From Pigoraptor vietnamica (lineage: Eukaryota; Opisthokonta; Filasterea), in assembly GCA_943704525.1 (NCBI GenBank), contig CALSCQ010002514.1, positions 1 through 49,799 on the forward strand: a stretch of 49,799 nucleotides of DNA, read 5' to 3'. The notes under the pieces were generated by a model. The model ran no database searches, was not told the origin of the DNA, and worked only from the letters and a program-made list of their open reading frames with translations. This document shows, in pieces, positions 1-31,472 of the stretch; position 1 is the first letter of the stretch, and each line of letters begins with the position of its first letter. Position numbers and translations under genes: made by a program.

Positions 1-53
<53 letters not shown>
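1..53. repeat. (AG)26 microsatellite in transporter intron
   Basis: The window opens with 26 uninterrupted AG units. It lies in intron 7 of the minus-strand ABCH gene, so the transcript reads (CU)n. That would be a pyrimidine tract if the next acceptor lies just outside the window. Confidence 0.95.
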
Positions 54-56
<3 letters not shown>

Positions 57-2612
57 CTGATGAACAAGGATGACGAACACAGCTGCACCGTTATAAGGAG
101 CACTTACCAGCGCCCCACATCCTGTCCAGAAGTCCGTCCTTGCGCTCAAGGACGAATGCGAGAGCCGTAAGGCCAATCGAGAGCCCAAAGCTGATAGAGA
201 CAATCATGCCCGGCGCGATGAAATCCGTGAACGACGGATTGCGACTCCCGTACACAGGGTCGAGAATCACGACGGGGAGACTGCCGAGCGTAGGGTCCAT
301 GCCGAGATCTTGAAGTGTGCTAGCAACAAGGATCTGCGTGAGCAGAGGCACCCAAGTAAGGCGAAATGGAATGAAAATAAGAATAAGACAAGTGAAAGAA
401 CGAACCTCAAACGCCTGCGACACTTTCTGTTCGATTGAGATGGCAATTTGCTGATCAGTCGCATCAAGCGTAACATTGAGCGAGCTGCCGTAGATGACGG
501 AGAGATCGGTCACCGCATGCGTTGCACGGATAAAAAGGTCCACGCTGTAGTTGGCGCCGAACTCGAGCATGCCCCAGCAATCGCCGCGCCGAATCCTATC
601 GCGACCATCGATGGGACTGAACACGGGCACTTGGTGAATGACGTTGTGGTCGAGAATCGCCAGATAGCGCCCGGACATGGTGAAATTGAAGCCAGAGTCC
701 GCGGGGAAGCCTACAAACGAATTGATCAGAAGTTGATAAGCACGAGTAATAAATAGTGCTCACCACCACCGAGTGTACCCCAGTCAACAGCAGAACTCAC
801 CCTGGTCGGCGTTGTAAATGGCAACTCGGAGGCCCTTTGGGTCCGCGCCAATCGCGAGACAAAAGAGGATGATCTGAAGGCTGGGGGCGGAGATAAGGAA
901 AGGGTGAGCCGGCCGACCAGACTGGTGAGTCATTACCAGCGCAGAGTGACGTCCGCGAGACGCACCATGGTAGCAAAAACTGGAACGCAAGGAAGCCGTA
1001 GTTGCGTCGCATGCGCGTGATATTCTTGTACACCACCGTCTTGGTGTTGCTGACGCTGCGCGCGACTCGGTCCCGAAACCCAACTGCCGCGTGAGCTCGC
1101 CCCCCGTCGGCGATTGAGAAGCTTGTCTGTCGTGGGCGCCGCGGGCTGCCCTGCGCATCCTGCGGAATCGGATTGGGATTGCGGCTAATGCCCGCCGCGC
1201 TGGAGCGCCGCGCATCGGTTCCCGCCTCGACGCCGTCCGACGAAGCAGTTTCTTGGCCCTTTGCCTCGTCGCCCTCAACGGCAGGAGCAGGCATGCCAAC
1301 GTCGAGCGCCGCGCCTGTCTCCTTCACGCACAGGGTGAGGAAGACATCCTCCAGGGTGTTGGCGGAATACCGCGCCAGGAGCTCCCCGGGCGCATCTTCG
1401 GCGAGCAGGCGCCCGTTGTGCATAAACGCAACTACCGCCGACTGTCGCGCCTCCTCGATGTAGTGCGTGGTGACAATGATCGTCGTGGGATTGGGGCCCG
1501 AGGCGAGTTCGGCCAGGTGCTGCCAAATCCTGCGGTACGCGGAGAATGCATCAGTCGAATACGCCAGAGAGCGGCGAAAGTGTGCCACTGCATGCAAAGA
1601 ACATCAGAAGAGTAACGCAGCGCAGCGCACCTCGCGCGCAGAATGGACTGCACCCCGACGGTGGGCTCGTCGAGGATGAGCAGGCGCGGCATGTGAAGCA
1701 GCGCGACGGCAAACGAGAGGCGCCGCTGCTGTCCCCCGCTCATCTGGCGAACGAGACGCTCGGGCGGGGGGAGCTCGAGAAATTCGACAAGAAACTTCAC
1801 GCGACTCTCAATGTCCTCGGGGTCCATGCGGTAGACGCGCCCAAAAAAGACGAGCGTCTCGCGAATGGTGAACTCAAAGAACAGCGCCGTCTCCTACGCA
1901 ATCGCATGGCGTTACAGCAGAGAAGACAAGGGCAAGGAGAGTCCAGACGCACACGGGAAACAATGGTGAACTCAAAGAACAGCGCCGTCTCCTACGCAAT
2001 CGCACCGCGTTACGCTGAGAAGACAAGGGCAGTCGAGACGCACGGAAACAATGCTGCACCCCAGCCGCGATGCCAAAGGCACAACAGCCGCGTTATCGCT
2101 GGCATTTGAGTGAACTGAACAGGGAGAGGGCGAGACATCCAATACAAACAGCCAACAAGCGCAGCAGCGCCCGTGGCACCGTACCTGCGGCATGTACCCA
2201 ATGTCCGTCCCCGGCACATTGTGTCCGGGCGCGCCGGGGGCGTCGCCGAGCACCGACAGGTATCCGCCGTGAATGGAGAGGCGGCCCATGAGGCACTTGA
2301 GCAGCGTCGTCTTGCCGCACCCCGAGGGCCCCAGGAGGGAGTAGCTGCGGCGCCATTCACGCTGGCATCAGTTGACAAGACACGACGGGAGAGGGAACGA
2401 CTGCAAACTGCGTGTCGTTTTTGCGCATCAGAGAAGAACACGCACATCTTTCCCCTGGGGACGGCCATGTCGAGCCCCTCGAGAATGCGCGTCTTTCCAT
2501 AGTTCCTGCACAGCGAGCGCGCAACCACGGCGTACTGCTCGTCCTCCTCTGCGTTGAGCGAGCACGCCGTGTCGGCAAGCACCGTGTCCCCGAGGCGTCG
2601 GTACCGCGCCAT
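1..2612 (-). CDS. ABCH-type half ABC transporter, 3' end beyond window
   Basis: An N-terminal ATP-binding domain is followed by an ABC2-type membrane domain, a half-transporter layout. Exons on the minus strand: 2612-2446, 2344-2185, 1893-1631, 1529-966, 880-801, 710-406, 333-108. The last donor at 107 leads into an intron reaching the window edge, so the C-terminus is missing (588 residues seen). Visible motifs are Walker A GPSGCGKTT, Q-loop GYMPQE, signature MSGGQQRR, Walker B LLILDEPT and H-loop TTH. The tract IGYMPQ-ETALFFEFTIRETL and the THYIEEARQS segment resemble the ABCH subfamily more than ABCG. Membrane segments lie near the exon 4/5 junction and in exon 7 (GMIVSISFGLSIGLTALAF), with an extracellular loop between them. 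The substrate cannot be told. The D-loop reads VGVQS where VGVDP is usual. The start is the first ATG before the domain. The promoter gap is shared with the TMEM267 gene. Confidence 0.88.
1864..2059 (-). repeat. 98-bp tandem duplication carrying a second 3' splice site
   Basis: Positions 1864-1961 are repeated at 1962 to about 2050, slightly diverged, with an offset of 98. The unit holds the 3' splice site and first codons of ABCH exon 3. On the minus strand an identical acceptor plus exon start therefore occurs at 1991 and again at 1893. Only the downstream acceptor (1893) keeps frame, because 98 is not a multiple of three. Confidence 0.9.
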
Positions 2613-3170
2613 CGTCTGTCGTTGGCAGTGAGCCCGCCGTCGAGATCACTGCGATGGGTTGCGCCACAGCAGGCGCAGAGTGGAGGAAGGGCGCCGATGC
2701 GAAGAAGGAAGATGCAAGAAACTGCGATTTCAAGTTTACGTGGGCTCGCACTTTGCGATTAGGAATCTACTATTAGATAACGATGAACGGTTTGAGAGTA
2801 CCGAGTCAGGTACAGTGCGAGACTACTAACGAATGTCTGCCTTAAGTATACACGTGACAAGCGCACACTCGACCAAAAGCGATCCGCAAGTTGCTGGTCC
2901 AAACTTGAACAAGGCTCTCTAACATTCACGCACACACAAACCGCGTTCGTGCGGAAACTTAGCCGACGCCCTTCAGTCGCAGATTACGTCGCGTGCTGTC
3001 TTGCGGGCTTGTCGACTGCGGTGGACTCGTCGGTCCACGACCCGTTGGTCGGTGTTGGCGCAATAGGGGACCGTGCATGCTTGCGCTCACGGAAGAGCGG
3101 GGTCCGCGCCCTATGCGGCGTGTGCCTGTTGGCCACGTCCGCAGCCCGCTCTGCTGAGTTCGCGCAGTAG
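2613..3170. promoter_or_regulatory. Divergent promoter gap, ABCH / TMEM267
   Basis: A 558-bp gap lies between two start codons facing away from each other. It includes a relatively AT-rich stretch around 2740-2850 and a CACGTG at about 2850. I see no TATA box, CCAAT box or open reading frame with recognisable content. Confidence 0.5.
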
Positions 3171-11537: not shown

Positions 11538-11719
11538 CGCCCATTTGGGCAGGTGCTGGGAAGCGCAAGATTCGAACGCGGAGCAGTTCACAATCGCAAT
11601 ATAAGCACGTTTACATCAATTTACCAATTAGCAAGATCGAAATGCACAAACGCGATAGACGACAAAAACAGAGGCAGCAATCTCAGCGCGAGGGGCGCAA
11701 CACTCGCCACACGCACTCC

Positions 11720-14700
11720 TCAGACGGGCGCAGGGCCGGCGGGCGCACCCGCGGGCGCCACACCAAAGAGCATCTTGATGTCGTCGAGGCCGAGCTTCTG
11801 CTGCTGGGCCGACTTGTCCGCGCCGAGCGTCTCCGCGACGAGGCGCCGCTTGCGCTCCTGGAGCTCAAGGATGCGCTCCTCCACGGTGCCCTGCAATTAT
11901 GCGCACGAAAGCCATCAGACAACAGCGCACGTGCAATAACACACACAACCGCCTGTCTGGACGTTGTGAGCACACACGGAGACATGTGCACGCGAGAGGG
12001 AATACCTTGACGATGAAGCGGAAGACAAACACGGGGCGCGTCTGCCCAAGGCGGTACACTCGGTCGATGGCCTGGTCCTCGGTGCTCGGGTTCCACCTGC
12101 GGTGTGCGGATATCGAAGCAAATGTTTGAGCGACAGACTACTGGCGCCAAGGGCATGCCACAAACAAAAGACACGGCCACCGACCATGGGTCGAGCATGA
12201 AGACCTGCGACGCCGCGACGAGGTTAAGGCCGACGCCGCCGCACTTGAGCGAGACGAGGAAGACCGTGACGTTGGGCGACGTGTTGAACGCCTCGATCGC
12301 CGCCTCTCGCTTCTCGCGGCGCATGCGACCGTCCAGCCGCACAAAGCTGAACCCCGCGCGCTCGAGCGGCTTTTCAAGCAGCGTCAGCATGGACGTCCAC
12401 TGCGAGAACACGACGCTCTTCACCGTCGGATCCTTCGCGCGGGTCGCCGTGAGGTACTGAATGAGCGCCTCAATCTTCGTCGACGATTTGACGGGCGCCT
12501 CCTCCTCTTCCTCCTTCTTGCTCTCGTCGTCGGCAGCGTCGGCTTCCGGGGGCGCTGCGATGAGCTCTGCTGCAGTGACGGGCCCGCGGCAGAACGGGCA
12601 CGACTTGTTGTTGTCCAGCGTGCGCTTGATGCACTCGCGGTCGAACACGTGGCCGCAGGGCGTGATCACGGGGTCCTTGAAGTCGTCGAGACAGATGGGG
12701 CAGCTCTCCTCATCGTTGTTGCGCAGGAGTTCCACGAGACGCCGCACGTTCTCGTCGTTGTAGTCAATGCCCATCGCGCGCGCTTGCGCAATCTCGGCTT
12801 CGGTGAGCGCGCGCGTCGCACAGAGGCACGGGTGATCGCACGCCTGCCGCAGACGCATGACGAGCTCGAGCACGTGCGCGTAGTTGGACAGCTGCACAGT
12901 GTCGATGGTTAGGGAGTAAGAGAACATCGAATCTTATAGGCACACGAGGCAGCCATATTGACAGCGCACTGCGACGCACCGCCGTGTTGTTCCGGATGTA
13001 CGAGTTGAGGATCAGTCGGCCCTTCTGCTCCATCTCGTCGTAGATGGCCTGCTCCTCGTCGCTGAAGCTGAGGCTGCTGACGTACACGTGCTTCTCGGGC
13101 AGTACGATGAGCGGCTGGCCGTTGATTTTCGTCCCCTTCGTGCGGCGCAGACACAGCTGGCCCAGCAGCTCCTGCAAAGTTCCAATCCAACGGGCGTGCG
13201 TATGAGCATCGCATGCGCACGCCACACAAGACGTTCCCGCGCGCAACGAATGCGCACCTTAATGTGCCCGACCACGGTGGCATCCCCGTTGCGCATGGGC
13301 CGCTGGATAAACTTGTTGAAGAACCCAAAATCATTGACCGTCTCCACGCGGAGAAAGCGCAGCAGCGCATAGAGGTCTTCCACCTGCGACAGCGAGAATG
13401 GCGCGTCAACAACAGGGCAAGCACTTTCCACGCGGCGTAATACAGCACACAAGTCCCCTGCCTGCGACGGCAAAATGAACCATGCGCAATGAAGCGGGCC
13501 CATAGGACCGACAACGCGACACATGGACAAATAATTGGGCTGGGGTGGGGGGTTACCTTGTTTTGGATGGGCGTTCCCGTGATGAGCCAGCGGCGCTCGG
13601 CGTCGAGGCTGCTCGCGGCGAGCGACTGCTTCGCATTGCGCCCCTTAATCGAGTGCGCCTCGTCCAGCACAACACTGCATTGACGGACGATAAGTGCCGT
13701 CCGCAAAAAAAAAAAAAAAAAAAACACCCGCAGGATGCACAACTGCACTTGCATTAAGCACTCGCGATGGACAGAGATGGCCGCGCACACGGCATGTCAC
13801 GTGAGACGGCCTAACATGAGCCTTATTGTTATTCGTGCAATCCAACTCACCGCAGCCACTTTCCAGCGAACAGGGGACTGGACTGCGCCCGCTTGAACTC
13901 GGTGGCAAGCACCTGGTACGTCGTGATGACGACGTCGTGCGAGCGCATTTCCGCCGCAGAAATGCCGCGGTTGGCGCCGTGGTACACGAGCACAGAGAGT
14001 CGGCCGGGAACCACATGCGCCTTCATACCGTTTCGGAGATTGGGGAGAAATCACGAGGTCAGCATGAGTGAGGATGCGGCAGAGCTCCGGGTTCAGCACG
14101 CATAATGAGAGGGTTGGGCGCGCATAATGAGAGGGTTCAGCAACCGCAATGAGAGAGTTGCGCACGCATAATAAGAGGGTCTGGGGGCGCACACACCTTG
14201 ATCTGCGTCTCCCAATTGCCGACGACCGACAGCGGCGCGACAATCAGCGTCGATTTGCCGTACGCTGGGTCGTGCGCCAGGCGGTTGCTCGCAAAGGCGC
14301 CGCCGTGCGGGGCACGAGCAACATCGCAAGGACCTGCAGCGTCTTGCCAAGGCCCATGTCGTCCGCCAGCAGGCCGCCGCGCACGGGCACGGGCACCCGC
14401 CGCGTGGCCATGCCGACCACGCTGTTAACGTACAGCTGCGACTTCTGCGAGAACTCCCAGAAGAGCACGCGGCGGCCCACGGCGGCCGGCAGCGGGTGCT
14501 CCTGGTCGACAAGCCACGCAACGCCCTGGCGCTGGTAAGGGAGCAGGGGCGTGACGAGGCCCTCGGGGGCGCCGGCGTCGCGCATCTCCGCAAAGTTGCG
14601 CTCGGTAGCCGTGCGCATGAAGACGGAATCGAATGCCGTCTGCGTCTGCCCGACGGCCGTCCCGTTGCCCACAAGCCGCATCCACTCGGCCGCGTCGCGC

Positions 14701-16036
14701 CGGTCCTGCGCAGCAGCAGGCCGCCGCGACGTCTCGCTCCGCGCGCGTTCCTGCGGGTTGCGGAACGTCGTCGTCTGCTCGTACGGCAACCGGCGGAGGC
14801 GCGCCATCACCGCGGCGCTGTTCGCGGGGAGGCAGAACACCTGAATGGCAAGGGGATGCGAGAACTTGTTGTTCTGGCCGCCCGTAATGTGACCCTCGAG
14901 TCGCACGAGGCCGCGGTCGCATAGGGGGGCGAGCTCGCGCGCGTTCGTCGCCGGAATGTGGCCCACTTGCTCCCCGTGCACGTTGATCACCTGGATGGCG
15001 TTGGGGTCGTAGCGGTTGTGCGGCTCGCGGCGCAACACCACGCCCTCGCCCTTTGACACGACGCCCGTGTAGTACTGCACGCCTACCACCTTCGTCGCAA
15101 ACTCAATGAGCTCAATGTCGTCATCCGCTGCACCGCAGTGATGTCCGGCTCCTCCTCCTCCTCGACGTCCACGTTCGGCGGCGCAAAGGCCTCGGGGGCG
15201 CGCGCAAATCCCTTCGAAGGCTGCACCTTGGGCGCTGCGACGGCATTTGCGGTCGGTGGTCGGGACGCGGGAACAAGGGCAGGGGCGGCGGCTGCCATGC
15301 GCGGCGGCTGGGCCGGTGCAGCCACGCCTGCCGTCGCGGTCGGGCCCTGCTTTAGCTGCTCCGTAAGTTTCCCGAGGACGCTGGCGAGTGACTCGCCGGG
15401 AAACAGCCGCGCAGCCTCCGCAAACAGGCGCCCGGCAGCACCCACGACGTCGCTGGGCAAGGCGTCCATCTGCATGGGCAGGGGCATCGCGCTGGCCTGC
15501 GCTGCCGGGGGTGCGGCGGGGACTGCGGGTACGGCAGCAGCGACAGGGACCACGGGCACGGCAGCAGCGACAGGGACCACGGGCACGGCAGCAGCGACAG
15601 GGACCACGGGCACGGCAGCAGCGACAGGGACCACAGGCACGGCAGCAGCGACAGGGACGGGGGCTGCGGCAGCGGCAAAGGTGGGCGGCGTGGGAATCCA
15701 CGCGGACGGGGCAGTAACAGGGTGAGCGGGTGCTGTAACGGGCGGTGCGGGCGTGCTCGCAACAGCCGCAGCATTTCGAGGCGCGTTCTTGGAACCCTTC
15801 GGCCGACCGCGGCGCTTCGGCGCAGGGGCATCGTCCCCGCGCATCCTGTTAACGGCCTCCAACAGAGCGTCCGTGGGAAAGCTCACAGATGGAGGCGCGG
15901 AGACCGCAGGGGCGCTGTCCACGCGGGGCTTCTTGGCATCCGCGGCAGCCGCAGGGCCCGCCGCGCTTGGCGCACCGCGCTTACGCCCGCGGGACGCCGC
16001 GCCTGCGTCGTCCGTGAGATCAATGACGCCCTCCAT
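11720..16036 (-). CDS. HLTF/Rad5-like HIRAN-SNF2-RING helicase, two apparent frame breaks
   Basis: Chromatin/DNA-damage-tolerance translocase with ubiquitin-ligase RING. Exons: 16036-14197, 14020-13851, 13674-13557, 13383-13258, 13171-12980, 12891-12185, 12096-12006, 11890-11720; about 1,138 residues if the two breaks are bridged. Order: N-terminus [10 protein letters not shown], an AT-hook-like KRRGRPKGS, an Ala/Pro/Val repeat, an acidic run, a HIRAN domain (from about residue 315; [20 protein letters not shown]), helicase motifs [15 protein letters not shown] and [21 protein letters not shown]...CPFCRG (about 880-918) and SNF2 C-motifs GGVGLNL and [12 protein letters not shown]. Near 15132 and 14298 the reading frame slips by one base; exon 1 is 1,840 nt, two short of a whole number of codons. 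No GT-AG intron fits either place. The pattern is consistent with single-base losses, real or from sequencing. Confidence 0.9.
13705..13724 (-). repeat. T20 tract before an acceptor (transcript sense)
   Basis: Twenty A on the plus strand is T20 on the HLTF transcript strand. It ends 30 bases upstream of the 3' splice site at 13675 and so serves as a polypyrimidine tract. Confidence 0.85.
14096..14182 (-). repeat. ~28-bp minisatellite in HLTF intron 1
   Basis: About four diverged copies of a unit containing GCACGCATAATGAGAGGGTT lie within the intron 14021-14196, close to its 5' splice site. Confidence 0.8.
15530..15665 (-). repeat. 27-bp coding minisatellite, AAAVPVVPV repeats
   Basis: About five copies of a 27-bp unit encode nine-residue AAAVPVVPV repeats in the disordered N-terminal part of the HLTF-like protein. 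The copies are nearly identical at DNA level, so the array is recent or homogenised. The unit is a multiple of three and keeps frame. Confidence 0.92.
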
Positions 16037-22000: not shown

Positions 22001-24304
22001 GCGATGCGCGCAGCTGCTCCTGCAGACGCGCCAGCTTCCTGTCCGCCTCGTCCCTATCACGCCGCGACTGCCGCGACCACAGCGAGTCCTCGCTGTCCGA
22101 ATCCACGACAATCGTCGCATCGCCCACAATCGGCGCCACCGCAATGGGCGGTTCGTCGTCGTCAAACGTGTCGCTACTCGTGCTCAGCGGGCGACGCCGG
22201 AAAAATCCGTGACCCGCGTCAGAACGTGCCTCCGCGGCGTGTGCGTTTGCAGAATCCCCACCGTTACTGGGCGCATGCGAGCGCCCGTCCGCCGGCATAG
22301 CCACCGGCTCAGAGAGCACCAGCGGAATACGCGGGAGCGATCCCTGGAGGGCGTCGTCCAACTGGCTCTCGAGGGGGACGTCCGCATCGGGTGAGACGGC
22401 TGCGCCCGGCCGTCCGCCGTCAGAAACATCGGACGCCGTGGACGATGCGCGCGTGTCGCGGCCCTGCGCCGGCGTGCCCTGTGAAATGCCTTCGTGAACA
22501 GGCGGCGACGTTGCCAGGCGCAGCGACGACGCCCCCTCCGGAGACGGCGACGGGATAACGTCAGCGTACGCGTCCTCTCGAATGGTGTTCGACAATATCA
22601 CCTCGGAGCGCGGCCGTGCGCTGCGGGCAAAGTGCCGCGTGAGCGGGTTCTCGCGGGACGGCGATGTCGAGTGCGCCGGCGTCTCTTCCTGCGACGACGA
22701 CGAGCGGGGCCACTTGAAGAACGGCAGCGTCACGAGCGACGCCTTGCGCACGGGCGCCTTGTCCTTGATCACGAGAATGGGCGAGTCCCCCTCCGCCCCG
22801 CGCTCGCCGTCCGCATGCGACGGCAGCACACGAAGGGGCGCATCCCCAGCATTGAACAGCCGGTCCTCGCCGCCGCCGCGCAGATAAAAACCAGGATTGG
22901 ATGTGCTTTCCCACGCAGAGCGCAGCGCCGACAGCGCCACGAGCTCCTCAACGGTCGTGTCCACCGGTGCCGCGGCCAGAATGGAATTGCCGCCGGGCAG
23001 AAACACGGCGAACGCGCGATGGCCCTTGGGAGTGCACATGAGGCGTGCGCCGCGCAGCACGGCCGGCAGGAGCACGTCCGTACCGCCCACCTGCCACGCG
23101 CGCCCGTCCGGTCGCAGCGCCCACAGCCAGCAGTCGGCGCCAATTCCAGGCGCGCGCTCGCGCACAGCCGCACACACGTCGGCCGCCGTGGTCGTCTTCG
23201 TGATGCTCACGGACGTCACGCTGCCGTCGGGAAGGTGCACCGCGCCAATGTCGCTCGGCACCGCCGACGCCCCGGACGTGGACGAGGGGGTCGACGGCGC
23301 ACCCCGAGCTGCGGCCGAGCTGGGCGCGTGCCCCGCCGTCATGGCCGAAGAGCGACCCCGGCGGCCTACCTCGCCGACCGGCACCACGGTGGACGCGGAG
23401 CTCTCGGCGTCCGGGGATATTGCATGCAGTGCGTGCATGGAGGACGAGAGGGCGCTGCCGGCGAGCTCCCGGCCGGGCTCGCCCTCCACCACTTTCAGAT
23501 GGGCATCGGCCGACTTGGACCGCTTGTGCTGCGATCGGGGGGATCCCTTCGCAACGGCAGACGCGGCTGCAGCAGCGATGAACGTGTCGTCGGTGCCGGG
23601 CGACTCCCGGATGGTGGGGAGGGCCTCCGGGCCGCCATGTATGAACACCTCAGACTCGACGAAATCGTCCGAGCTCTCGTCGGCGAGCGAGCGCGTGTCG
23701 TACGAGCCGTGCGATACGACAGAGTTGATGCGCAGCGGCATGGAGAGGTAGTACTGTCGCACGAGCTCAAGCCCCTGCACCCACCGCTGCATGTCCTCGG
23801 GCGTCTGCGCAAAGCACACAACGGCCCCCCGTTCAGCGCACTCGCGATGACATCGACACCGGCACGCGACGACCCGTGATGTACCAATAAAGGCCGTTGC
23901 CTAACACACAAGCTGAATACAGGGCATCACCGCACGCGCACGCACCTCGGACAGGAAATGGTACGTGCGCGCCTCAATTTCGACGTCGAACGCCGTGTTC
24001 ACGTGGTGCTTCTTGGGTACACTGCCCGGAATGACGCTGTGTATGGACGAGGCCTTGGTGACGTCGAGAAACGAGATGGCCTCCGTGTCGTTCGGTGTCT
24101 GCAGGTGTGCGTGAAGAGGAGATGAGTTCCGCATTCTGGCTGTACGAGAGCTCAGGTATTCGCACGGTTGCGTGCAGATGTGTGTGCACGTTGTGTGTAT
24201 GTGTGTGTGTGTGGGTGTGTGTGTGTGGGTGTGTGTGGGTGTGTGGGTGTGTGTGTCTGTGTGTGTGTGTGTGTTGTGTGTGTGTGTGTATGTGTGTGTG
24301 TGTA

Positions 24305-24343
<39 letters not shown>

Positions 24344-24737
24344 ACACGGGTGTATGTGTGTGGTGAGTGTGTGAGGTGTGTGGGTGTGCATGTGTATGTG
24401 TGTGGTGTGGGCGTGGTGTCGTGTGCGGGAGTATGTGTGCGACGTGCCGCGTTTTCTACTTTCGGACTGCGAGCGCATCCGATCGCAACCGCCACCTTAT
24501 AGTACAGCATTTTGTTCTTGATGACGCGAAAGTACCGCTGCCGCCACCGCTTCAGAGGGTCCTTGTCGCCGAGCTTGTGGAGGAAGCCCTCGAGGGCCGG
24601 CGGCTGTCATGCGATCGGCGTTATGGCAAAGGGAAGAATTACGGAGTTCGATTCTTAACAGCGACACTAACACAATTCGCAGGGACGCGGTTCATGGGCA
24701 CACGCGAACATACCACGACAATGTCGGGCTCGGCCAT
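19060..24737 (-). CDS. Large PH and RUN domain protein
   Basis: Predicted membrane-trafficking or small-GTPase effector of 1,464 residues. Exons: 24737-24714, 24603-24496, 24098-23946, 23804-21264, 21106-20317, 20207-20140, 20047-19882, 19740-19620, 19483-19060. The first exon codes only [11 protein letters not shown] domain spans about 10-125 ([19 protein letters not shown], closing helix [11 protein letters not shown]). Two ubiquitin/RA-like stretches follow at about 282-353 ([13 protein letters not shown]) and 358-442. A long Ser/Pro/Arg-rich disordered region runs to about 1200, with a short coiled coil [21 protein letters not shown] domain occupies about 1203-1385 ([34 protein letters not shown]). 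The tail is Ser-rich. RUN domains commonly bind Rab/Rap GTPases and PH domains bind phosphoinositides; the partner here is unknown. PH and RUN calls rest on pattern recognition. Confidence 0.82.
19801..19876 (-). repeat. 38-bp tandem duplication at a PH-RUN 5' splice site
   Basis: Two copies with period 38 start at 19801 and 19839 on the plus strand, and the next unit boundary falls at 19877, inside the exon 7 donor. On the minus strand the donor-like GTGGGCGTTTGC at 19881 is echoed 38 bases further into the intron. Confidence 0.85.
24176..24410 (-). repeat. Long (CA)n tract (transcript sense) in PH-RUN intron 2
   Basis: About 235 bp of nearly pure GT on the plus strand, broken by single substitutions. 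On the transcript strand it is (CA)n, in the 3' half of intron 2 (24099-24495). Reading frames through it give only Val-Cys or Thr-His runs and are not genes. Confidence 0.97.
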
Positions 24738-25610
24738 GGTGCACGGGCGTTGGGCGGCCTCACTCCCCGTGCTTCATCTCCACGCTGGTTCAGAGGCCTG
24801 CGACACGCGCGCGGTTGCACAGCGCTCTCTCTCCACGCACACAATTCAGACGCCGCGCTCGCAGAGAGGGACATAGACACACACAGAGACACACGAACAA
24901 GTCTGCAGCCGAGGTAGTCGACTCAACGAGCACATAAACACACGGGCGCTTGACTTTTTCACTCCACTCGCACTTACGGTGTGTTTAGGATAAGGTGAGG
25001 GCTACGTTTGTTTGATGTACAGTGAGGGATACAATGAACCCTAAAATAGCCTATATTTCCCTTTAAATCCAAATATGTATAATATTGAAACATATATACT
25101 AATATAGTGAACTTGTCCCACCGTCACCGGTCGGTCGCCACAAGCAACGGTTCGGTAAAGTCTACTTGTTGTAGATATTGGTCTATCACTAAGAAATCAC
25201 AACTCTAGTGAACTGTCAGACCAATTGAAATGCACAAATAAGTCGGTGTTCACCCTAAAGTCGAGAATCGGCTGCCAGCGCACTGGGCATTGTGGCTTAT
25301 GTGACATCAACCCCTTTATACTCCCAGCCTTGCATCGCTCGCTCTCGCCGTCGTTTGCGCTGCCATTTGCGCGTCAGAGTGACTCGTGCGGCTTGTGCAT
25401 CCTCCTTCATCATTGCAACACTCACTGCTCTCACTGGGTGTGTGTGTGGGCACAAACGCGACTGTTCGTGGGCGACAAACGGTGCATTGCCGCACGCATC
25501 GCTGCGTCGCGGTGTGCAGCCATGAGTGTGCGGAACTCTCTCTTACCCACGCGATAGAGCGTTTACTACTGTAAGGGGGCGCGTGCCCCCGGGCTGCCGT
25601 GGCCGCAAGC
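24738..25610. promoter_or_regulatory. Divergent promoter gap with AT-rich island, PH-RUN / NEK9-like
   Basis: At 873 bp this is the longest gap in the window. Positions about 24990-25260 are markedly AT-rich against the GC-rich surroundings, with runs such as ATATGTATAATATTG. A CCAAT lies at about 25222 and a TTTATA at about 25315. No gene, tRNA or 5S-like sequence was recognised. Confidence 0.55.
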
Positions 25611-28600
25611 ATGGCGACGCCGCACGCAGACCCCTTTGACGGGGCAGGGGCTGGCGACGAGCCTTCGCACGCGCGCACGCTGCCCTTGCCGCCCATTACG
25701 CCGGGGAATGAGACGGTGGACCCCACGGTGCTGGCGCAGGCGCTGTTTACGCCGCGTCTGCTGCTGATTGGCTCTCGCGTGAAAACGCCCGGCGTGCTCG
25801 TCAACGCGTGTCGTGAGGACGTCGTCTCGCTGCTCTTCCAGTACGAGTCGACGACAGCCGCCGACCTCGTCGCGGCCATTGCCGACAAGCTGGAGGGGCG
25901 GCGCTGCATGAGCATAGGGATAGTGTCGCACTCGGACCCCGGCATCATCTACACGTGCGGGGCTCCGGGGGAAAAGCCGACGTCCCTCGCCAATCTCAAG
26001 GATGTGCGGCAGTACTGGCTGGACGTGTGCGCATTTCTCGACCCCGCGGGCGACCTGCGCGTGGACTTGCTCGCGAGTAACGTGGCGTCGAGTCCGGACG
26101 GCCTGCAGCTGCTGCGGTCGCTCGAGACGCTCACGCGCACGCACTTTACAGCGTCGCAGGACATCTCCGGCGGCGCGATCGAGGCGCCACAGTCCGCGCG
26201 GCGTTACAGCGACTATGTGCAGTCGGCGGAGTCCCCGGGCATTGTCGCTATTGGCGAGCTGTACTTTCGGCCGAACAAGCTCAAGAATTGGTCGCAGCAG
26301 GGCACTGGGCAGCTGATGGACCAGTTTGAGAAGATACGCGTCGTGGGGAAGGGGGCGTACGGCGCGGCCGTGCTCTACCGCAAGCGCGACGACGACTCGC
26401 TCGTCATTCTGAAGGAGATCAACATGCACGATCTCAACGCGAGCGAGCGTCAGATGGCGCTGAACGAGGTCGACGTGCTGTCCATCCTAGACCACCCCAA
26501 CATCATATCGTACTACGACAGCTTTGAGGAGGTGCGCACTCCGCCGTCTGTGCGTCTGTCGAGCGATGTTTTTGTGCATGCATGCAGTGTCTCCATATTA
26601 TGCTTTACGCCAAGTGCGAATGCGCCCGCGCAATTGTTTGTGTGCGCGGGTGAGAGTGCGTGTCCAGACACAACCCCTTCGTTGCCTCACCGGTGCCGCT
26701 GTCCCTCTTCGATAGGACGGCACCCTTATGATTGAGATGGAGTACGCGGACGGCGGCACGCTCGCCCAGTACCTCTCTGCGCAGTCGCAAGAGATCCCCG
26801 AGCGCGAAATTGTCGGCATGTTCCGCCAGATGGTCGAGGGCGTCGCCTACATCCACGCAAACAACATCATGCACCGCGACCTCAAGACGGCCAACATCTT
26901 CCTCACGAGCGAGGGCGTCGTGAAGCTGGGTGATTTTGGCATCGCGAAGGTCATGTCGACGACGCGAAACTCGAACACGGTCCTCGGGACGCCGTACTAC
27001 ATTTCGCCGGAGCTGTGCGAGGGGCGCTCGTATAACCAGAAGAGCGACATATGGGCGCTCGGCTGCATTCTGTATGAGATGGCGTGCCTGCAGCGCACGT
27101 TCGAGGGCAGCAACCTCCCCGCGCTCGTGAACAAGATCATCAAGGGGTCGTTCGCCCCGGTGAAAGACACGTACTCGGAGGAATTCCGGCAACTCGTGAA
27201 CGAGCTCTTGCAGCGCGACCCAGAGCTGCGCCCGTCGGCGGACGAGATTCTCGCCCGTCCCATCATGCACACGGGGACGGGGCAGACAGTGCGGCCGGTG
27301 AGCGCAAGCGCGGACGGCGACCTACCCAAGGCCAGCACGCAGGCGGACGTGTGGATGTGGGGGAACGGGAAGTTGAGGCCACACCAAGTATCGTTCCCGC
27401 CGAGGTAAGGGGGCTGTACCATAAGTGCGTGTGCGTGTGTGTGTGTCTGCTGTTTCGACACATGTGATTTGGACTGTTGTGTTGGATTGGGAGCTGACTG
27501 TCATCGTCTTCTCAGAATTCGCATTCGCTCGGTCGCGATTGGCGCGCGTCACTCGCTTGCGGCGACGTACGACGGGCAGGTGTTCAGCTGGGGCGATGGT
27601 TCGTCGGGACAGCTCGGACACGGCAACACGGAGGCGTACACTATGCCAATGGTGCGTGTAAAAGATCGTATGCTGTGGATCGTGTGCGTGTATCCCGCGC
27701 GTGCACCTTTTCCCCCGCTTCGTGTGCTGTCTGTTTCCTCTGTTCTTTGCGACGACCGCCATTGGGGTTTCACTCAACGTGGGATTCATCGTTAGTTGAA
27801 TTTGACGCCACGTTGTGCAGTTGATCGAGGCGCTAGTCGGCAAGTCGATAACGCACGTGTCGTGCGGCGAGGACTTCAGCGCATTCAGCAGCGAAAACGG
27901 CCTCGTCATGACGTGTGGCTCTGGCTCGCGCGGCGCACTTGGCCACGGCGACTACAACGACCTTCTCCGGCCACGGCTCATCGAGTCGCTTCTTGTCAAG
28001 GAGGTGTGTGGTCGCTGCTATGGGATTTGGGGCAACCTCTTATCCCACTTCCTCCGCCGCCTACCTCGCTCATGGCGCGCGCATTCACTCGCCCACGCTC
28101 TCTGACACACGCACTCCTTGTTCTCTTTCAGATTGCGAGCGTCTCGTGCGGTTCGGCGCACGTGTTTGCGCTGACGGCGGACGGCCTCCTCTACGGCTGG
28201 GGACTGGGGCTCCACGGGCGCCTTGGATTGGGATCGGAGGAGTCGTATCCCTCGCCGCAGCTGGTGCCCGTGCCAATGGGTGGGTTCCGAGTGGTCTGTC
28301 GTACTGCACTGGGGCGCGCATCCCGCCTTTCACCTCTTGTTTCGGCGCGGCGCACCTGTGTGTATGTTGCCGTGTTAACGTTTGCGTGTCTGGCATGCCT
28401 TGCGCAGGCTACACGCCCAAGACGGTCGTGTGCGGCGTGGATGGGACGATGGTGATCACCGACATGGGCCGATTGCTCGCATGCGGAAACAACGAGGACA
28501 ACAAGCTCGCCCTTAACTCGCGCTTCGGGTTCCTCATGCAGCGAAAGCACGTGCTCAACCGCGCCGTCATTGCCACGAAGAGCCTCTCTCCCGTGAAAAT

Positions 28601-31472
28601 CCTCAACAAGCACCGCGTCACGGCCGTCGCGCTCGGCCTTTCCCACAGCGCCGTCCTCTGCGACTCTGGGCGCTGCTACACGTTCGGGTGCAACCGAGAG
28701 GGCCAGCTGGGCGACGGAACGACCAAAGTGCGCGACGTGCCCATCATTGTGAAGGCCCTGAGTGAGAAGAAGCTAAAGGCGCTCGCGTGCGGCACCATGT
28801 TCACCATTGGCGTCACGTTCACGAACGAGGTGTTTGCGTGGGGCCGCGGCGACGACGGGCGGCTGTGCACCGGGAAGGTCACCGACAGCTACCTGCCGGT
28901 GCAAGTGCCGCTGCCGACGGAGGCCGCCACGGGCGTCACGTCCGTCGTGTGCGCGAACGCAGGTGGCTTGCTCGTGCTTGAAGTGGAGGTGCGTTAAGTG
29001 CCGTGTCTGGCATGTGTGCGCCTTTGTGGTTCGCGTGGGTGTCACGTGCTTATCATGAGAGTCATCCGTGCCCCTATCGCTGTCGCAGGCGCCTGAAGTG
29101 ACGCCGCGCAACCAGCGCAAGGACCGCACCGCGAGCGCGCCCACGCGGCGTCCGTCGCGCGCGCGCAGTGCGGGCAATCGCTCGGACGAGGACGGTGCCA
29201 CGAGCGTGCACTCGAGCGGCTACGTGCGGCGCGGGAGCAGCGTGTCGCAAGCGAGCATCGGGGACTTTGACGACCCCGACGTCCCCGACTGGCTCAAATC
29301 GGAGATGGACAATGCGACGGACGCGCCGGCGCTCGACCCTTCGCGCAGCACCACGCAGCTTGCGTCGCAGTCCTTCGGCGGCATGAGCATGTCGGCCAGC
29401 GCCCCTGGTGGTCAAATGCGCTCTGCGTCGCAGCGATCCGTGGGCGCGCGCGACGGCGTGTCCCGAACAGCGTCGCAGGCGTCGGTGGCGCGGTCGCAGT
29501 CGCACGTGCACGTGGGCGACGCGCGCGGAGGAGAGTACACGGCGAGCGGCGTGAGCGCCGAGTCTGATGCAAGCAACGCCGACTCTGAATCGGACGCCAT
29601 CGCCGCGGAAATGGCCGCCATGATGGAGAACGACCTCGACGTCGAGATTGCGCGGGAGCTCGCGAACATGACGCAGTCTGGCGGGCCGACGGCGCTCGGG
29701 GACGCCAAGCGGGACAGCGCGAGCAGCAACTCTGCGTCGAGCGTCCTGTCGTCAAGTGCGCGCGCGCGGCAGCAGATGATGCACATACACTCGCAGATGA
29801 TTCCGAAGGGCTCGGAGCCGGCGCCGGGGGCCGAGGGTGAGTCGGACAGCGAGCGGCGCAACACGAGCCTCAACACGAGCTCCAGCACGCGCAGCAACAC
29901 GTCGACGACGCAGCTGGCAAACATGCCGCCGGCGTCGACCGACCCGCAGTTTGCCGCGCTGTACGCAACGGCCGCGGCGAGTTCGATGGCGATGAACAAG
30001 TCGGCGACGGCCGCGAACATTGCCGCGGCGAAGAACGGCGGTGGCAGCTTTGGCAATCTGACGAGCTCCGGAAACGGCCCGGCCACGAAGAGGGACTACT
30101 CGTCGCCGCCGCCCGAAGCGCAGGGCGATGCGGCGACATCCGGGGCGGAGAACGACGGTCGCGCGCGCTCTGGGAAGGGGTCGCGGAGCAAGGACAGGGG
30201 CCCGAAGAGGGACGGTCAGGTGGGGAGTAGGGTTGGGGTGATGTTTGGGGTGGTTGACGACAGGGGGGCTTGAGTGGCGGAGAGTGTGTGACATGGGTTT
30301 AGTTGCACCGTATGATGACAGCGTGGCAGCGCGAACATGGCACGATCACATCGTTTGATTGGCGCGGAAGACTGCCGTGGCTGACGCGCGATTGCGCGCT
30401 CACGGCAACACTGCAGGCGCCAAAGAAGCGGCGAACGAAGGAGAAGGAGGAAGCGCGCGAAATGCGAAAAAGTGCACGCCGCGAGGAGAGAGCGAAGGTG
30501 CGATTGCCTGAAGTTACTGCGCGTTCCCCCTCTCCTGTGTGCGTGTTGGTCATGGTGTTCTGACGTCATGGCTCCGTCACAGGTCGTGGAGGCGCAGAAG
30601 CAGAACGAGGAGATGCAAAACCGCCTGCGTCTGGAGGTTGAGGAGTTCCGCCGCAAGTATGAGCAGGTGCGTGCATGCCTCGCATCTCATTTGTGTGGTC
30701 GTGTGTGCGACTGTCCCGTGTGCCTTGTGCTCTGGTGCTTACTGCGCACACCTCTCTGCATCCCCCACAACAAATCACGGCACACGCACGCAACAGCAAG
30801 AGCAAGAGCTGCGCGAGTACAAGCTGCGGTCGATGGAACTGCAGCAGCGCCTCGAGGGCGAGTTGCGGGAGGCCGGCATCGCGCGGGTGGGGGTTCGATG
30901 CAGCAAACAGCCGTCGTCCGCTTGATCCCTCCCACACAATTGCTCTTGTCTCACTGTCATGTGCTCGCCGTGTCGTCCATCGCTGACACGCAACCACCCC
31001 GCAGCCACCTCAGCTGCCCCCGGTGCCAACCGATCCGCGCCCGCGCCTCAATTTGGGAGGCGCCGGCGGTCCACCCATGCAACCCTCCGCGTCGATGGGC
31101 CCCATTGTGTCGCCCAACGCCCCCCGCGTGCTGCCGGGGATGCCGGGAAGCCCCTCGATGCAGGACGAAGTGGCGCGCGTGACGGAGACGCGGCTGAAGA
31201 ACGAGATTGCAGACCTCAAGCTGGCACTGGCGCGGGTGGGTAGGGGGCTGTGTGTGGTGGCGTTCTTGTGTGCGGCGCACTGGATGGGTGGTCAGTGCAT
31301 GTGCATTCTGCTGGGCGAGTACGTGCTCACGTGACAGTCGCCGCAGCAAACGGACGCCTTCTCCGAGAACAACGAGATGGTGCGTGCGCTGCAGGACCAG
31401 CTGCGCGCACTCCGCGACAAGCAGGACCGCCAGGAGAACATGATACGCAGCTCGTTCTGCGCCGTGCTCTGA
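25611..31472 (+). CDS. NEK9-like kinase with DUF4347-like N-terminal domain and RCC1 repeats
   Basis: Predicted cell-cycle/cilium Ser/Thr kinase, 1,466 residues. Exons: 25611-26531, 26716-27404, 27516-27651, 27821-28003, 28132-28279, 28408-28988, 29089-30219, 30417-30497, 30583-30666, 30797-30886, 31005-31235, 31347-31472. The start is the ATG at 25611. Residues about 48-190 resemble bacterial DUF4347, with the His motif kept (IVSHSDPG, H107) but Ser (S156) where that family usually has Cys. The kinase spans about 239-490: GKGAYG, K268 (ILKEI), HRDLKTAN, DFG, and GTPYYISPE typical of NEKs. RCC1 blades follow to about 865 (HVSCGEDFSAF, GRLGLGS, TFGCNREGQLGDG). Next comes a 377-residue Ser/Thr/Ala-rich exon, then coiled coils (QEQELREYKLRSMELQQRL) to the end. 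Kinase-RCC1-coiled-coil order is that of NEK9/Nercc1. The N-terminal domain is unexpected. Confidence 0.9.

Follow-up and report, generated by a model that had tools for sequence, protein, structure and literature searches.

A NEK8/NEK9-type kinase gene of Pigoraptor vietnamica with a DUF4347 domain, a probable pseudo-peptidase, in front

Why does a protein kinase of the NEK (NIMA-related kinase) type carry a DUF4347 domain (Pfam PF14252) at its N-terminus? The question is raised by a gene of the filasterean Pigoraptor vietnamica, lying on the 49,799-nucleotide stretch analysed here (hereafter the window), which lies on contig C1039 of a source genome of 32.5 Mb in 1395 contigs. An initial annotation, made from the sequence alone, had described this gene as a caspase-fold, DUF4347-like domain fused to a NEK9-like kinase. 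We propose, with moderate confidence, that the product of this gene is a NEK8/NEK9-type kinase preceded by a caspase-fold DUF4347 domain, and that this domain is a pseudo-peptidase binding module.

How firmly can the domain be assigned? First, PF14252 matched a single locus in the source genome, that of the window (44.7 bits; cut-off, 24.6), and none of the 14 control genomes. In the Pfam scan of exon 1, the match covers residues 50–189 (43.8 bits, E 3.1e-11), while the NCBIfam scan of this exon gave no DUF4347 match. The motifs quoted in the initial annotation are in frame where it placed them, with base 25752 opening residue 48 and base 26181 opening residue 191. Second, a profile made exclusively of 52 bacterial DUF4347 domains (43 picked by eye for diversity among 80 loci, and 9 of the 65 matching plasmid records) gave the window domain 31.0 bits, with an E-value of 1.6e-6 for 177,635 sequences; the top score of 2000 shuffles of the domain on this profile was 5.6 bits. 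Finally, the predicted fold of the domain matches the clan-CD (caspase-like) peptidases in a structure comparison with a bacterial DUF4347 run as the control. The family assignment of the initial annotation is thus borne out, and the caspase-type fold is supported at the level of the model; the lack of a profile or fold match, which it had named as one result that would overturn it, did not occur. Searches with the window domain gave 27 pattern matches among prokaryotic genome contigs and three among viral contigs, none of them confirmed, and the DUF4347 consensus matched no phage. Among plasmids, two weak matches were obtained (E 0.2 and 6), and the former was dropped, as its record has no PF14252 match and its open reading frame appears to belong to an unrelated family. 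One locus, in a Methanomassiliicoccales archaeon metagenome-assembled genome (2501–3007), is the sole archaeal title among the 80 loci listed, and may be mis-binned.

What is the nearest relative of the domain? In a search of solved structures, the sole match at E up to 10 was ECT2L (E 4e-8; PDB 11xu chain A1, which we take to be the human protein from its length of 904 residues), an entry absent from the fold-comparison matches listed. The matching ECT2L stretch, residues 286–458, is itself PF14252. DUF4347 is not confined to bacteria, numerous as the bacterial members are (at least 541 stretches were confirmed): the ECT2L stretch scores higher on PF14252 than the window domain, at 65 bits. 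The location given in the initial annotation was likewise correct, but its extent was too short: the Pfam match stops at profile position 131 of 164, the remaining part aligns with ECT2L only, and this alignment carries the homology to residue 228 (base 26294).

The abundance of bacterial members, together with the lack of a second copy in the source genome (none at E up to 10 with either the window domain or the ECT2L stretch as the query), would suit a bacterial DUF4347 gene captured within this lineage, unrelated to the ECT2L copy and now decaying or of marginal use. On the bacterial-only profile, the window domain is nearer to the bacteria than ECT2L is (31.0 versus 22.5 bits). However, when scored in a common set, the window domain reaches 39.7 bits with ECT2L versus 22.3 bits with the best of the 52 bacterial domains, and in the reverse direction ECT2L reaches 38.8 bits with the window domain versus 18.9 bits with the best bacterium. 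Moreover, the ECT2L alignment runs past the core, and the codon usage of the domain matches the remainder of the gene: with a model trained on exons 2–7, the domain frame scores 0.324 bits per codon and the five other frames −0.793 to 0.053, and the GC content at third codon positions is 0.84 in the domain versus 0.85 in exons 2–7. A 54-row tree also joined the window domain and ECT2L (99/96); with its very long end branches, unsettled bootstrap and only two eukaryotic rows, this clade is suggestive and may reflect long-branch attraction. We consider bacterial capture improbable, and ECT2L is, as judged from these scores, the closest relative found. The window protein does not appear to be an ECT2L orthologue as judged by the RhoGEF (DH) domain that ECT2L carries: no DH domain was found in the five pieces of the window protein scanned (exons 3 and 5 not separately), and none of the 39 RhoGEF matches of the source genome is on the window contig.

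Could the domain still cleave peptides? An active cysteine peptidase of clan CD requires a His and a Cys. The catalytic His is present in 51 of the 52 bacterial rows and is kept in the window (His107), whereas the catalytic Cys, present in all 52 (a count biased by the Cys in the motifs used to fetch these rows), is replaced by Ser156. The alignment confirms both sites as first described. In contrast, the Asn in place of Asp, also described as a departure, is within bacterial variation, as it occurs in several bacterial rows (LYGCNVA). Because the catalytic Cys is missing, a loss of activity is predicted, and the domain is most likely non-catalytic. With the His retained and the Cys replaced by another nucleophile, a new Ser156–His107 pair might in principle form an active hydrolase. 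This is highly improbable in our judgement: cysteine peptidases are usually inactivated when Cys changes to Ser in one step, and ECT2L has lost both residues, with Asp at the His site and no Cys.

Next, we consider the kinase. Pkinase scores 39.0 bits in exon 1, rising to 172.6 bits in exon 2, the best relatives in the PDB are NEK1, NEK7 and NEK2, with NEK1 the nearest, and RCC1 matches follow in the pieces 27806–28003 and 28413–28994. From this order, a NIMA-type kinase and then RCC1 repeats, the protein is classed as NEK8/NEK9-type, without telling NEK8 and NEK9 apart, in place of the narrower label "NEK9-like". The kinase is probably active, as it carries a glycine loop and the HRD, DFG and activation-segment motifs that mark a working protein kinase. 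A second NEK-RCC1 gene lies on contig C121 (1–7000), with a 51% match over window residues 238–387, and begins directly at its kinase; three stop-masked frames over about 750 bases upstream gave no DUF4347 match, although such scans say little. This gene contains a long GT repeat inside its kinase-coding stretch, and in its tail the motif VPSWLREELE resembles one of the window protein, VPDWLKSEMD at residue 951.

Is the domain really made as one protein with the kinase? As the initial annotation had noted, the domain and the kinase N-lobe lie in a single open exon, with no stop or frame break in 25611–26531, and a gene-model error is unlikely. The open reading frame extends over 25575–26735; its earliest Met, at 25611, is the first past the upstream stop and has A at −3 and G at +4. 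The functional kinase might instead start at Met236, which directly precedes it, with the upstream stretch a distinct open reading frame or not co-translated, and the paralogue does start at its kinase. Nevertheless, the uninterrupted exon and the poorer context of Met236 (C at −3) make separate products very unlikely. Bacterial contamination was ruled out, since the domain shares its exon with the kinase N-lobe in an intron-bearing gene; HIRAN/SNF2 and RING/helicase matches on the same contig also oppose it. On the minus strand opposite exon 1 there is an open frame of 306 amino acids (25566–26486; codon score, −0.333), which is probably a by-product of high GC because it lacks a coding signal of the kind seen in the sense frame.

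How might a probably inactive caspase fold serve a kinase? One possibility is that it regulates its own kinase, by autoinhibition or dimerisation, rather than docking others. This is the main rival to a binding module: the ECT2L homology ends (228) only some ten residues before the kinase starts (239), so that direct contact is possible, and caspase folds often dimerise. We regard it as rather unlikely, as the ECT2L copy sits in a RhoGEF-type, oncogene-like protein and not in a kinase, which favours a portable binding role. As a binding module acting in cis, the domain would supply the kinase with partners or substrates, or would anchor it at the cilium or basal body.

We infer docking or targeting from four points. 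In zebrafish, ect2l knock-down affected motile cilia, both in the ear and in Kupffer's vesicle, and shortened the cilia of the kidney tubules (PMC4199137). NEK8 is a ciliary kinase, and organisms with cilia have larger NEK families (PMC11974183). The source organism probably has motile cilia, because its genome contains a radial-spoke match that exceeds the Pfam threshold. Finally, the N-terminal caspase-like domain of Raptor, itself inactive, mediates the binding of substrates opposite the mTOR cleft (PMC6325617); the role proposed here would be akin to that of Raptor in presenting substrates to mTOR, except that the module is covalently joined to its kinase. More tentatively, and with considerable doubt, we suggest that an ECT2L/NEK branch of caspase-fold pseudo-peptidases could be an old eukaryotic ciliary docking module, attachable to a RhoGEF in animals or to a NEK kinase here, which would recruit substrates in cis, much as Raptor serves mTOR in trans.

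Table 1. Positions of the features of the predicted gene in the window.
Feature	Position	Strand	Remarks
Whole predicted gene	25611–30273	+	1280 amino acids; 7 exons and 6 GT..AG introns, hand-spliced; open to the final stop
Exons	25611–26531, 26716–27404, 27516–27651, 27821–28003, 28132–28279, 28408–28988, 29089–30273	+	Last exon includes the stop
DUF4347 (PF14252) match	25758–26177	+	Profile positions 1–131 of 164; stop-free
ECT2L-homologous span	25746–26294	+	Residues 46–228; phmmer E 4e-8 to PDB 11xu_A1 residues 286–458
His107	25929–25931	+	Aligned to the His presumed catalytic in DUF4347
Ser156	26076–26078	+	Profile-alignment column is Cys in 52/52 bacterial rows
Internal Met236	26316–26318	+	Just 5' of the kinase; candidate alternative start
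NEK-type protein kinase domain	26325–27264	+	From residue 239; interrupted by intron 26532–26715
RCC1-repeat region	27516–28988	+	Exons 3–6
Low-complexity Ser/Ala-rich tail	29089–30270	+	No Pfam match at E 0.01

Elsewhere in the window, the minus strand carries RING finger and helicase C-terminal matches at 11686–12933 and HIRAN and SNF2 matches at 14247–15848; these are probably exons of one HLTF/RAD5-like gene. The start of a PH domain lies on the minus strand at 24489–24606 (22.8 bits, below the cut-off of 25.1), in a gene running away from the NEK gene, and a long CA/GT repeat at about 24150–24450 translates into runs of His-Thr where frames are open. Nothing was found by stop-masked scans covering one frame of 1–3000 and six frames beside the NEK gene, which says little because the PH match surfaced when a short piece of the same region was scanned alone.

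Is this arrangement new? Each component is known by itself (DUF4347, NEK-RCC1 kinases, dead caspase folds), and their combination is new to us; other NEKs with a DUF4347 domain may exist, our sequence searches having covered prokaryotic, plasmid and viral collections and the PDB. The literature naming DUF4347 is scant (four papers in the library searched), with no title on NEK kinases or cilia, and its DUF4347 passages that we consulted do not concern NEK kinases. No relevant paper was found joining NIMA-related kinases with caspase-like domains, none since 2023 on ECT2L with the axoneme, and none on 11xu with cryo-EM and cilia; a structural paper on ECT2L since 2023 was not among the titles listed.

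Compared with known systems, the domain shares its core motifs with the bacterial DUF4347 of large repeat proteins (the annotated rows are repeat or DUF4347 proteins), but these keep the Cys in all 52 rows fetched and match the window domain less well than ECT2L. Tce1 (PA0256) of Pseudomonas aeruginosa (PDB 9qpe chain G) differs in being a putative cysteine protease that is secreted and retains both His and Cys (PMC13323088). With NEK8 and NEK9, the window protein shares a kinase followed by RCC1 repeats; in NEK8, the kinase lies at the N-terminus (PMC11974183), whereas here the kinase comes after the DUF4347 domain, at residue 239. ECT2L is alike in having a PF14252 domain with homology beyond the bacterial-type core, and differs in being a RhoGEF-type protein, not a kinase, in which neither catalytic residue is left. 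That a cilium gene and a NEK8/NEK9-type kinase share this dead-protease domain offers a concrete and testable hint to its role in ECT2L. Raptor of mTORC1 is a separate subunit, serves another kinase class and has only weak structural similarity, so that the analogy is one of role. The gene described here would also be a second case, after that of Raptor, of a kinase setting that retains a caspase fold but not its chemistry.
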